64,000 nt of DNA from the NCBI GenBank assembly GCA_017559905.1, contig JAFYQF010000002.1, forward strand, positions 62,001-126,000, in the 5' to 3' direction. The DNA comes from a bacterium. Its GTDB lineage: Bacteria; Cyanobacteriota; Vampirovibrionia; Gastranaerophilales; Gastranaerophilaceae. Below are positions 34,517 through 63,701 of the stretch, one piece after another; within the stretch, counting starts at the first letter, position 1; each line of letters opens with the position of its first letter. The notes beneath the pieces are model-generated. The model was given only the letters and a program-made list of their open reading frames with translations. It searched no databases and was not told the DNA's origin. Made by a program: the position numbers and the translations under genes.

Positions 34517-34736
34517 CTTGGGTATATATATTATATCAAAACAAGATATCCAATGTGCTTAATAAAAAGTTTTGTTTTCATTAACCCCGACATTAGCTTG
34601 CTTTGGCAGAAGTGCAACCATTAATATTTGCAGTGCGGTTGCTGCCACGACCGCGCTCCTTAATATATCAGACTAACCAAAGATATTTTTTGCTAATCAT
34701 ATAAGGACTGAGCGGAGTGACTTCCGCTCTTTTTAT
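34512..34736 (+). ncRNA. Candidate structured RNA or rex leader ending in a terminator
   Basis: This non-coding stretch has strong pairing potential. AATATCTTGG (34512-34521) can close with CCAAAGATATT (34677-34687), one bulge; ATATATTA (34526-34533) with TAATATAT (34661-34668); AGTGCGGT (34632-34639) with ACCGCGCT (34650-34657). Competing folds exist: ATATCTTG with CAAGATAT (34542-34549), and GCAACC/GGCA (34614, 34605) with GGTTGCTGCC (34637-34646). It ends in a terminator hairpin. Size and rod shape recall 6S RNA, while alternative folds recall a riboswitch; neither is shown. SRP RNA, tmRNA and RNase P motifs are absent. Confidence 0.4.
34710..34736 (+). terminator. Terminator just before rex
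   Basis: GAGCGGA (34710-34716) pairs with TCCGCTC (34723-34729) and TTTTTATTTTA follows. It ends the candidate RNA 20 bases before the rex start. Confidence 0.8.
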
Positions 34737-34743
34737 TTTAGTG

Positions 34744-34749
34744 TATAAT
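34744..34749 (+). promoter_or_regulatory. rex -10 box, six bases before ATG
   Basis: A perfect TATAAT ends 6 bases before the rex ATG (34756), predicting transcription from the start codon itself. No good -35 is seen; the preceding terminator occupies that place. Confidence 0.5.
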
Positions 34750-34755
34750 GAAGAT

Positions 34756-35370
34756 ATGGATAAGAAGATTTCAGAGAAAGTAATCAACCGTTTAACGCTT
34801 TATCATTACATTTTAGACGATTACGAAAAAAAAGACATTGAATTCATTGCGAGTAATCAGATGGCGTCACTATTGAATATTGACGATTCACAAGTTCGCA
34901 AAGATATTAGTATCCTAAACAATTCTGGCAAAGGTCGAGTTGGTTACATCGTAAAAGAACTAAAAAAATCAATTGAAACGACATTGGGTTTTGCAAAAAC
35001 CAAGAATGCCTTTATTATCGGAGCAGGAAACTTGGGAATGGCGCTTGCAAAATACGACAACTTTACCAATTACGGTTTAAATATCGTTGCGTTATTTGAC
35101 AACGACGACAAAAAAATTGGCAAAACGATTAATAACAAACTTGTATTAGACATTGAAAAACTACCAAACTTAAGCAAAAAATCAGGAGTCGACATTGCAA
35201 TTCTGACAGTCCCACGAGAATACGCACAAATTATGGCTGATTTCCTAGTACAAGCTAACATCAAGTATATTTGGAATTTCACACCTGCAGTATTATCAGT
35301 TCCAAAAGACGTACAAGTTTGGAACGAAAATTTGATGGGTAATTTCCTACAATTTACATACAATATTTAG
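34756..35370 (+). CDS. rex: Redox-sensing transcriptional repressor Rex
   Basis: Rex is a dimeric repressor that senses the NADH/NAD ratio and controls fermentation and respiration genes. The 204-residue product has an N-terminal winged helix ('LTLYHYILDDY', 'SQVRKDISILNNSGKGRVGY') and a Rossmann domain with 'IIGAGNLGMALAKY' and 'FDNDDKKIGK'. I choose the ATG at 34756, where the family begins. A Rex site (TTGTGAA-N4-TTCACAA) is not visible upstream. Confidence 0.93.
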   Translation: MDKKISEKVINRLTLYHYILDDYEKKDIEFIASNQMASLLNIDDSQVRKDISILNNSGKGRVGYIVKELKKSIETTLGFAKTKNAFIIGAGNLGMALAKYDNFTNYGLNIVALFDNDDKKIGKTINNKLVLDIEKLPNLSKKSGVDIAILTVPREYAQIMADFLVQANIKYIWNFTPAVLSVPKDVQVWNENLMGNFLQFTYNI

Positions 35371-37593: not shown

Positions 37594-37622
37594 TTGACAA
37601 ATAAACTTGGCTAAAATATAAT
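37594..37622 (+). promoter_or_regulatory. Consensus promoter of hisS, leaderless
   Basis: TTGACA (37594-37599), a 17-base spacer and TATAAT (37617-37622) match the sigma-70 consensus perfectly. The ATG begins 7 bases after the -10 box (6 between), where transcription is expected to start, and no ribosome site is present. Confidence 0.88.
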
Positions 37623-37628
37623 CACTTT

Positions 37629-38873
37629 ATGGCTAAAATTATTAATGTTGTAAAAGGAACAAAAGACATACTTCCACAAGATGCACCGATGTGGCACTTG
37701 TTAGAGAAGAATGCACTAGATATATTCACAAAATATGGATATAAAGAGATTAGAACACCTATTTTTGAGGTAACAGAACTATTTGCAAGAGGGGTTGGCG
37801 ACACAACCGACATCGTAAACAAAGAGATGTACACTTTTGAAAAAAGTGACCGTTCACTCACTTTACGTCCAGAAAACACTGCGGGCGTAGTTCGTTCATA
37901 TATTGAAAACAGCATGAGCCGACTATCTGCACCGGTTAAACTTTGGTACAAAGGTCCAATGTTCCGCTACGAAAGACCTCAAGCAGGACGTCAAAGACAA
38001 TTCCACCAAGTTGGAGTTGAAATGTTTGGTGTAAAAGATGCAACAGCAGACGCTGAAGTTATACTTTTAGCCGTAAACTACTTAAAATCATTAGGACTAA
38101 ACGATTTAGAAGTTGAGATAAACTCACTTGGATGTCCTGAATGCAGAGAAGTTTACAAAAACAAGATAAAAGAAGTTTTAAAACCTGAATTTGACAATCT
38201 TTGCGAAGATTGCCAAAACAGGTACGAAAAAAATCCATTAAGACTTTTAGATTGCAAAGTTGACAGTTGCAAGGAAATTTTTGAAAAACCTGAAATAAAA
38301 GCAGTAATCAAATCTGACTTTATATGTGAGTCTTGCGCTGGCCACTACTCTAAACTAAAATCTTACCTTGATGAACTAGATGTAAAATACATTGAAAACA
38401 AGCTTTTAGTAAGAGGTTTGGACTATTATAACCGTACAGTATTTGAAATCAAATCAAACAATCTTGGCTCACAAAACGCAGTTTGCGGTGGTGGAAGATA
38501 TGACAGTTTAGTCAAAAACCTTGGTGGAGAAGACACACCAGCTATTGGTTGGGCAATGGGAATGGAAAGACTAATCTCATTAATCCCTACAATAGAGCCT
38601 AAAAAGCTTGACGGATACATAGTTTCAAACTCTCCAGCAGACGCGTTTAAATTAGCTTCAGAACTTCGTGACGCAGGCTTGGTAGTTGAGTTCGACTTGC
38701 AGAACAAAAAGTTCACCAAACAGCTAGAAAAGGCTTCTAAAGTAGCAAATTACGCCTTTATACTTGGCGAAGACGAAGTTAAAAACAATATGGTTTCTGT
38801 AAAAAATCTGTCTACATCAACACAAAAACAATTAGACAGAAAACAACTTTGGAGTGAATATAAAAATGTCTAA
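37629..38873 (+). CDS. hisS: Histidyl-tRNA synthetase
   Basis: HisS charges tRNA-His. The 414-residue class II synthetase has 'GTKDILPQDAPMW', motif 2 'YRYERPQAGRQRQFHQ', 'LVRGLDYYNRTVFE', 'GGGRYDSLV' and motif 3 'GWAMGMERLI', followed by the anticodon-binding domain. The translation start lies on the predicted transcription start. Its stop overlaps the ATG of the next gene. Confidence 0.97.
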   Translation: MAKIINVVKGTKDILPQDAPMWHLLEKNALDIFTKYGYKEIRTPIFEVTELFARGVGDTTDIVNKEMYTFEKSDRSLTLRPENTAGVVRSYIENSMSRLSAPVKLWYKGPMFRYERPQAGRQRQFHQVGVEMFGVKDATADAEVILLAVNYLKSLGLNDLEVEINSLGCPECREVYKNKIKEVLKPEFDNLCEDCQNRYEKNPLRLLDCKVDSCKEIFEKPEIKAVIKSDFICESCAGHYSKLKSYLDELDVKYIENKLLVRGLDYYNRTVFEIKSNNLGSQNAVCGGGRYDSLVKNLGGEDTPAIGWAMGMERLISLIPTIEPKKLDGYIVSNSPADAFKLASELRDAGLVVEFDLQNKKFTKQLEKASKVANYAFILGEDEVKNNMVSVKNLSTSTQKQLDRKQLWSEYKNV

Positions 38874-48293: not shown

Positions 48294-48322
48294 TTGTAAT
48301 TTTCAACTCTTTTAATTATAAT
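48294..48322 (+). promoter_or_regulatory. kdsA promoter, leaderless
   Basis: TTGTAA (48294-48299), a 17-base spacer and TATAAT (48317-48322) lie 6 bases before the ATG at 48329; no ribosome site is seen. The geometry is identical to hisS. Confidence 0.75.
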
Positions 48323-48328
48323 TGACTT

Positions 48329-49153
48329 ATGGGAAATATTGAAAAGATTAAATTAAACAATTTTGAGATTGGTTCTGACAGGTTAACTATTTTAGCAGGG
48401 CCATGTGCTGCAGAAAGTGCAGAAATTTTAGATGAGACAGCTAGAGTGTTGAAAGCAGTGACACAAAAACTTGGTATTAACTTTGTGTTCAAATCTTCTT
48501 TTGACAAAGCAAACCGTTCTTCAATAACTTCTTACAGAGGTCCTGGAATTGAAAAAGGGTTAGAAATGTTGAATACTATCAAAACAAAATACAACGTTCC
48601 GATAGTAACAGACATTCACCTTCCTGAACAAGCTGAAGTTGCAGCTCAAGTTGCAGATATTATTCAGATACCAGCATTCTTGTGCAGACAAACAGACTTG
48701 CTTGTTGCAGCAGCTAAAACAGGTAAAATTGTAAACATAAAAAAAGGACAATTTTTAGCACCTGAACAAATGGGAACGTTGGTAAGAAAAGTTGAAGACT
48801 CTGGTAACAAAAAGATTTTGCTTACCGACAGAGGCGTAACTTTTGGCTACAACAACTTGGTTACTGATTTCAGGGCAATACCTATAATGCAAAGTTTTGG
48901 CTATCCTGTAGTGTTCGATGCAACACACAGCGTTCAACTACCAGGAGCAAATGGAGTTTGTTCAGGCGGAGATAGAAGATTTGTTCCAATCCTTGCAAAA
49001 TCTGCGGTTGCAGCCGGAGCTGATGTTCTATTTTTTGAAGTTCATCCAAACCCTGACAAAGCGCTTTGCGATGGACCAAACATGCTTAAACTAGACTCTG
49101 TTGAAGAAGTATTTTCAACTTGCAAAAAAATATACGAAATTGTGAGAGCTTAA
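48329..49153 (+). CDS. kdsA: 3-deoxy-8-phosphooctulonate synthase
   Basis: KdsA condenses arabinose 5-phosphate with phosphoenolpyruvate to Kdo-8-phosphate for LPS. The 274-residue TIM barrel has 'AGPCAAESAE', 'FVFKSSFDKANRSS', 'RGPGIEKGL', 'IPAFLCRQTDLL' and 'VFDATHSVQLPG'. It leads a unit with an MBL hydrolase (start 2 bases after its stop) and pheS. Confidence 0.97.
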   Translation: MGNIEKIKLNNFEIGSDRLTILAGPCAAESAEILDETARVLKAVTQKLGINFVFKSSFDKANRSSITSYRGPGIEKGLEMLNTIKTKYNVPIVTDIHLPEQAEVAAQVADIIQIPAFLCRQTDLLVAAAKTGKIVNIKKGQFLAPEQMGTLVRKVEDSGNKKILLTDRGVTFGYNNLVTDFRAIPIMQSFGYPVVFDATHSVQLPGANGVCSGGDRRFVPILAKSAVAAGADVLFFEVHPNPDKALCDGPNMLKLDSVEEVFSTCKKIYEIVRA

Positions 49154-62486: not shown

Positions 62487-62978
62487 TTAAGCATCAACGC
62501 CGTCATCAATTAACAAGTTTTCTGATTTTGAAGAACTTACTGCCAAGCGGTCACAACGTTCATTAAATTCGTGCCCGTTATGTCCCTTAACCCAAATGAG
62601 TTCTATATCGTGCTGTTCCATAGCTTTTAACAAACGTAACCACAAATCAACATTTTTCACTGGTTTTTTAGCTGCAGTACGCCAATTATTCTTTTTCCAA
62701 TTTTCAATCCATTTTTGTTCAAAAGCATCAATAAAATACTTACTATCAGAACAAATTTTTACCCTACAAGGTTTTTTAAGCGCTTCCAAACCAACAATAA
62801 CAGCCAACAATTCCATTCTATTATTTGTTGTGACTTTATAGCCTGCCGTCAATTCTTTTTCATGACAATAACCGGTAGCATCAGTATGTCTTAAAATAGT
62901 ACCATACCCACCAGCACCAGGATTACCGCTACAAGCGCCATCTGTATACATCTCTATTAAAGTTTTCTCTCCAGCCAT
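62487..62978 (-). CDS. rnhA: Ribonuclease HI
   Basis: RNase HI degrades RNA in RNA/DNA hybrids. The 163-residue product keeps all four acidic catalytic residues: Asp in 'MYTDGACSGNPG', Glu in 'NNRMELLAV', Asp in 'CSDSKYFIDA' and Asp in 'NERCDRLA'. The ATG has no ribosome site; a TATTAT box ends 7 bases before it. Confidence 0.96.
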   Translation of the reverse strand: MAGEKTLIEMYTDGACSGNPGAGGYGTILRHTDATGYCHEKELTAGYKVTTNNRMELLAVIVGLEALKKPCRVKICSDSKYFIDAFEQKWIENWKKNNWRTAAKKPVKNVDLWLRLLKAMEQHDIELIWVKGHNGHEFNERCDRLAVSSSKSENLLIDDGVDA

Positions 62979-62985
62979 AACTGCG

Positions 62986-63014
62986 ATAATATCGTTAATA
63001 TAAGTTCAAGTCAA
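62986..63014 (-). promoter_or_regulatory. rnhA promoter, leaderless
   Basis: On the minus strand TTGACT (63014-63009), a 17-base spacer and TATTAT (62991-62986) lie 7 bases before the ATG at 62978. Five of six bases match consensus in each box. Confidence 0.75.
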
Positions 63015-63689
63015 TTATCTTTTATATTTTTTCAAACGTTGCTTTTCACTTTTTTCTATTCGATTTGATTCTATTATTTTTTGAATTGATTTGTTGTACG
63101 TAAAATCATCTAATTTTGACTTTTTCAAATATTCTTCACTCAACTCGGGATACTTTATATAACAAACCGAAACAAGCCAAGCAACAGCCATTTGTGCATA
63201 ATAATCTTTTGACGAAAATTCATCTACTATCGCAACGATTTTATCCAAATAATATTCTTCAACGTAATAATTTAACAACATTACAAACCCAAAACGAAGT
63301 TCATATTCTTTTTTTGACTTCAAATACGGTTGTAAGAAATCAAAAACATCTTGTTTATAAAATTTTACAAACTTTAGTCCGCAACAAAAGCTGTCGCACA
63401 CAGACCAATTGTCTATTTTTACAACAAAATCTTTTATCAATTGCAAATCTTGCGAGCTCTTTGCAACCAATCCAATAACCATTCCCTGGAGCATAACTTC
63501 TTCCATATATTTTGGAGTGATATTTAAAAAGCTTTGCCAATCTGATATAGATATATTTTTCGCTAACTTACGCAAAATCGGCAATCTAACTCCTAACACA
63601 TTTTTCACATTTGGAAGTAATGATGCCGAAAATTTTTGATAATCAGACTCTGCCAAATATTCCAGTTGTATTCTTATATCCTTAACCAT
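63015..63689 (-). CDS. AlkD-like DNA alkylation repair protein
   Basis: AlkD-type HEAT-like glycosylases excise positively charged alkylated bases. The 224-residue product has 'GVRLPILRKLAKNI', 'IDNWSVCDSF' with the key Trp and Asp, 'RFGFVMLLNYYVEEYY' with the Arg, and 'YYAQMAVAWLVSVCYIKYP'. The residue set suggests an active enzyme. Its ATG is 6 bases after TATAAT, without a ribosome site. Confidence 0.87.
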   Translation of the reverse strand: MVKDIRIQLEYLAESDYQKFSASLLPNVKNVLGVRLPILRKLAKNISISDWQSFLNITPKYMEEVMLQGMVIGLVAKSSQDLQLIKDFVVKIDNWSVCDSFCCGLKFVKFYKQDVFDFLQPYLKSKKEYELRFGFVMLLNYYVEEYYLDKIVAIVDEFSSKDYYAQMAVAWLVSVCYIKYPELSEEYLKKSKLDDFTYNKSIQKIIESNRIEKSEKQRLKKYKR

Positions 63690-63695
63690 ACGTAA

Positions 63696-63701
63696 ATTAT
63701 A
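63696..63701 (-). promoter_or_regulatory. alkD-like gene -10 box, six bases before ATG
   Basis: TATAAT on the minus strand (63701-63696) is followed by 6 bases and the ATG at 63689. The -35 position reads TATTCA, three of six. Confidence 0.6.

Follow-up and report, generated by a model that had tools for sequence, protein, structure and literature searches.

The hisS locus of a gut-dwelling, non-photosynthetic member of the Cyanobacteriota (Gastranaerophilales) raises the question of whether an mRNA of this lineage can begin directly with its start codon, without any 5' leader. The gene lies in the window, by which the whole stretch of 64,000 nucleotides of DNA analysed here is meant; no psbA-family gene was found in the 1.84-Mb genome to which the window belongs. 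The hisS gene has its closest relatives in genomes of Candidatus Gastranaerophilales / Melainabacteria. According to the original prediction, a consensus promoter stands so close to hisS that transcription should start on the ATG itself, and the same spacing recurs at kdsA, rex, rnhA and an alkD-like gene. The hisS arrangement of TTGACA, 17 bases, TATAAT, 6 bases and ATG (37594–37631) is present as described, and we infer that the A of the ATG at 37629 is the +1 of this gene. Coordinates of all features are collected in Table 1.

Table 1. Promoter elements, genes and other features of the window considered in this work
Feature	Position	Strand	Remarks
Terminator-like hairpin and T run 5' of rex	34710..34739	+	GAGCGGA..TCCGCTC, then TTTTTATTTT (read from sequence)
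−10 element TATAAT of rex	34744..34749	+	6 bases to ATG 34756
rex, redox-sensing repressor, leaderless-type	34756..35370	+	NF003994; start is ATG 34756, not the upstream GTGs
−35 element TTGACA of hisS	37594..37599	+	Exact at a spacer of 16–18 in 60/68 leaderless-type orthologues
−10 element TATAAT of hisS	37617..37622	+	17-base spacer from −35
Discriminator CACTTT of hisS	37623..37628	+	6 bases, −10 to start codon
hisS, histidine--tRNA ligase	37629..38873	+	TIGR00442, 474 bits vs. cut-off 287
−10 element TATAAT of kdsA	48317..48322	+	6 bases to ATG 48329
kdsA, KDO-8-phosphate synthase, leaderless-type	48329..49153	+	NF003543
rnhA, ribonuclease HI	62487..62978	−	NF001236; few relatives have rnhA
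−10-like TATTAT of rnhA	62986..62991	−	7 bases to ATG 62978; weak case
alkD-like gene, leaderless-type	63015..63689	−	Name taken from the original prediction
−10 element TATAAT of the alkD-like gene, extended (TGATATAAT)	63696..63701	−	6 bases to ATG 63689

The hisS start and its orthologues

The hisS promoter is the sole TTGACA-N16-18-TATAAT located 3–12 bases from any ATG in the 1.84-Mb genome. When 80 hisS orthologues were compared, 68 proved to have a −10 box adjoining the ATG, at exactly 6 bases in 67 of them and at 7 bases in one. The discriminators of these 68 genes represent 47 different sequences, and all 68 have T at position −1. An exact TTGACA is separated from the −10 box by 17 bases in 51 leaderless-type orthologues, by 16 in 8 and by 18 in one. 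Since this spacer varies between 16 and 18 bases and the distance from the −10 box to the ATG is fixed, the −35 element may move and the −10 box may not. Such a pattern would be the expected outcome of selection on a +1 at the A of AUG with a pyrimidine before it. The predicted leaderless state of hisS is strongly supported by the exact −10-to-ATG distance, kept in 68 of the 80 orthologues despite the sequence turnover in between.

The layout is missing in the other 12 orthologues, in 11 of which the homologous start is preceded by a Shine-Dalgarno-like sequence, and the HisS protein tree requires at least three switches between leaderless and Shine-Dalgarno starts. The orthologues of the Shine-Dalgarno type (L050, L059, L061, L066, L067, L071 and L076–L080) belong to at least two separate clades.

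The intergenic space 5' of hisS is 460 bases long, which leaves room for a second, upstream promoter supplying a leadered mRNA that is the one translated, the proximal start then being a minor one. In our opinion, this is quite improbable: the orthologues diverge beyond about −40, the 68 share no conserved Shine-Dalgarno sequence in front of the ATG, and a distal promoter would leave both the fixed distance of 6 bases and the invariant T at −1 unexplained. A search of Rfam gave no matches within the window, and there is consequently no known leader RNA at hisS. Start calls made from sequence alone are often wrong, and it may be supposed that the true start codon is situated downstream, the −10 box merely appearing adjacent to an ATG. 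This explanation has a very low probability, as protein conservation extends to the first hisS codons (MAKIINVVKGTKDILP in the window's copy), beginning at codon 2 in the orthologue comparison; no further in-frame ATG occurs until after the conserved KGTKD motif, the Shine-Dalgarno-led orthologues begin at the homologous place, and internal ATGs of the same genes form no comparable class.

Other starts in the window

The layouts of kdsA and rex are as claimed, and both genes keep 6–7 bases across the genus. In kdsA, this spacing is common to the 12 other genus members that have the locus and to most members of the family, and it survives shifts of the start codon by 1–4 codons relative to the protein; outside the family, Shine-Dalgarno leaders appear. 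A promoter is expected at rex because a terminator-like hairpin stands directly 5' of the gene. Of 13 genus members (the window included), 12 have a rex spacing of 6 bases and one of 7, and a GGAGG leader is found in a sister genus. In-frame GTG codons are also located 5' of rex (34717–34755), so that the longest open reading frame begins inside the terminator hairpin and the −10 box; the start of rex may be misplaced by automatic annotation.

The spacings of the two genes read from the other strand are likewise as predicted. The alkD-like gene has TATAAT at 6 bases; rnhA has a spacing of 7 bases, with the hexamer TATTAT, not TATAAT. No NCBIfam match was obtained for the alkD-like gene, its distribution among relatives is patchy, and the 6-base layout is present in two of five distant relatives read (L009 and L165). 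The sole close rnhA orthologue is Shine-Dalgarno-led and starts four codons upstream, and the leaderless case of rnhA is therefore not corroborated. These two genes adjoin (62487–63689) and both occur in few relatives, and the window may therefore close with an accessory segment.

A genome-wide class of starts

The genome was sampled as stretches totalling 845 kb of the 1.84 Mb. At a GC content of 33%, TATAAT is often near an ATG by chance, and the TATAAT-N-ATG background is about 19 per spacing in this sample. Nevertheless, the probability that chance accounts for the layout is very low. The spacing histogram for all ATGs in the 845 kb has the predicted peak, with 46 occurrences at a spacing of 6 bases and 40 at 7, the mean being 19. 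The excess is limited to these spacings and to ATG, no TATAAT peak at 6–7 bases being found before GTG, TTG, CTG, AAG or ACG in the same sample, and the reversed pattern is without the excess (92 vs. 22, the window's genome). Moreover, the spacing is conserved gene by gene in hisS, kdsA and rex. For these three genes, the counts rule chance out; for rnhA it may still be the explanation.

At unambiguous ATG starts, exact TATAAT was found 9 times at a spacing of 6 bases, whereas the other spacings have 1.07 on average (Poisson P ~2e-6); in the same count over the own genome and the family the values are 13 and 1.76 (P ~5e-8). The one-mismatch peak in 20 other, lightly sampled family genomes is weak (9 vs. 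5.2, P 0.08).

An unsupervised mixture of position matrices was applied to 562 starts from the window's genome and 20 family members. One of its classes, comprising 14%, has the consensus '..TTttat.tTAtAAT...a.T' followed by ATG, and the other is of the purine-rich Shine-Dalgarno type. Cross-validation raised the held-out likelihood by 111 for two classes, two or three classes being supported in register; in a jittered-register control the held-out likelihood fell and one class was supported. Two classes are not favoured over one by the BIC, in which the 136 additional parameters carry a penalty. When the −1 column was held out, the leaderless-type class had T at this position in 80% of cases (49% in the rest) and C in 9%, in agreement with a pyrimidine–purine initiator at −1/+1. 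A Shine-Dalgarno 4-mer was found in 6% of the leaderless-type class vs. 83% of the rest, and an extended −10 TG in 32% vs. 4%.

Leaderless-type genes tend to come first in their transcription unit: 58% of the class have a divergent upstream neighbour (27% of the rest), and a same-strand gap of less than 30 bases precedes 11% (30% of the rest). The class includes dnaE, polA and era, as well as ispG, proB, ribE and trmFO, which were recognized by eye from translations. The name of housekeeping genes, given to it originally, is appropriate for hisS, kdsA, dnaE, polA and era and inappropriate for rnhA and the alkD-like gene, both patchy accessory genes. The share of leaderless-type genes, estimated from the mixture together with the excess counts, is about 10%, somewhere within 5–14%; the value is approximate because genes were called with a home-made program, and a part of the starts is misassigned. 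That such starts form a regular class in this lineage is backed by the spacing histogram, by the mixture model and by pattern counts across the phylum.

Distribution in Cyanobacteriota

In the family, 82 of 85 genomes contain more copies of TATAAT-N6-ATG than of TATAAT-N10-ATG (9,890 vs. 6,396), but among psbA-bearing cyanobacterial genomes the same is true of just 12 of 85 (2,530 vs. 3,609). Five other families without a psbA match (f3, f5, f9, f12 and f13) gave pooled counts of 305 for N6 vs. 149 for N10. Small samples from three of these five families have a TAnnnT peak 6 bases before ATG (14 vs. 2.8, P ~1.5e-6). No spacing peak was found in f41 (G210), a family of the same order, and N6 is barely above N10 (162 vs. 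155) in f2, a family of the same class; the leaderless class is therefore not uniform in the order or the class.

Absence of psbA presumably marks non-photosynthetic families, the psbA search giving by name the genomes with a match and part of the rest. It may be suggested, as a tentative reading with slightly less than an even chance, that leaderless initiation is regular throughout the non-photosynthetic branches of Cyanobacteriota and that oxygenic cyanobacteria have lost it or have it in reduced form.

In contrast to other genomes, two psbA-bearing genomes of one genus, G095 and G097, have N10 counts (83 and 110) that are strongly raised over both N6 (25 and 26) and the reversed control. 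This N10 excess may reflect a family of repeats or another spacing of starts.

Proposed transcription and translation

It is very probable that hisS and about 10% of the genes in this Gastranaerophilales family give leaderless mRNA from sigma-70-type promoters. The −10 box of such a promoter would end 6, sometimes 7, bases before the AUG, and RNA polymerase would begin at the A of this AUG, give or take one base; a true +1 one to three bases away from this A is possible. The 5'-terminal AUG would then be bound directly by ribosomes, without Shine-Dalgarno pairing; most other genes of the same genome have an ordinary Shine-Dalgarno leader. The layout, its excess at this spacing, its restriction to AUG, its conservation and its alternation with Shine-Dalgarno leaders are demonstrated here, and the +1 position and this mode of ribosome entry are what we infer from the sequence.

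The five starts of the window were originally said to have no ribosome site, in contrast to their neighbours inside operons. Indeed, a Shine-Dalgarno-like 4-mer is absent shortly before all five, and most other genes carry one. Two genus members retain CACCTCCTTT in their 16S tails, and in these two and three genomes of the same order the tails read ...GGATCACCTCCTTT; the anti-Shine-Dalgarno, taken here from relatives as the assembly of the window's own genome is without a 16S gene, is therefore intact, and leaderless and Shine-Dalgarno starts consequently coexist. The 16S rRNA genes are absent from the assemblies of the window's genome and of many genus relatives, a common gap in metagenome assemblies. 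Entry of leaderless mRNA through the 70S ribosome is established in other bacteria, according to work cited in PMC12340547.

Comparison with known systems

Leaderless genes are known foremost from Actinobacteria and Deinococcus-Thermus, with scattered occurrence in other phyla, and for Cyanobacteria the same surveys reported many genomes devoid of both signals, or a weak signal of unknown kind (PMC3160421, PMC12340547, PMC9581028). The class described here resembles the TA-led class of Zheng et al. 2011 (PMC3160421) in having a TATAAT-like signal some 10 bases ahead of the start and no Shine-Dalgarno, in its mixture with Shine-Dalgarno-led genes in one genome and in the extended TG of low-GC genomes. 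However, the list of leaderless phyla in that study is without Cyanobacteria, many of which had neither signal, whereas the Gastranaerophilales lineage has both. In Deinococcus-Thermus (PMC12340547), a −10 box adjoining the ORF likewise acts as a promoter and gives leaderless mRNA, the −35 often being dispensable; almost one third of ORFs are of this kind there, compared with about a tenth here, where hisS has a perfect −35.

An extensive leaderless transcriptome, mapped by 5' ends, is also reported for Mycobacterium tuberculosis (PMC3898074); unlike those experimentally mapped starts, the present ones are deduced from sequence, with the signal at AUG only. Synechococcus elongatus UTEX 2973 (PMC6091082) belongs to the same phylum and has 19 leaderless transcripts, but this is a handful, with a median leader of 52 nt. 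The psbA-bearing genomes, unlike the Gastranaerophilales family, have no N6 excess. No paper joining leaderless initiation with Gastranaerophilales or Melainabacteria was found in the open-access literature searched, the coverage of which was partial, and the starts considered here are of a known kind, in a lineage from which they seem to be unreported.

Conclusions

The original prediction is supported for hisS, kdsA and rex and for a regular class in the lineage. A branch of Cyanobacteriota that lives in the gut and is for the most part uncultured thereby joins the groups in which leaderless genes form a regular class. Gene finders that expect a Shine-Dalgarno sequence or a long leader may misplace starts such as that of rex in these metagenome-assembled genomes. 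Leaderless genes cannot carry 5'-leader regulation, and the orthologues of hisS, kdsA and rex that switch between leaderless and Shine-Dalgarno starts are natural matched pairs. As the oxygenic relatives are without the signal, the gain or loss of leaderless initiation is traceable inside one phylum.
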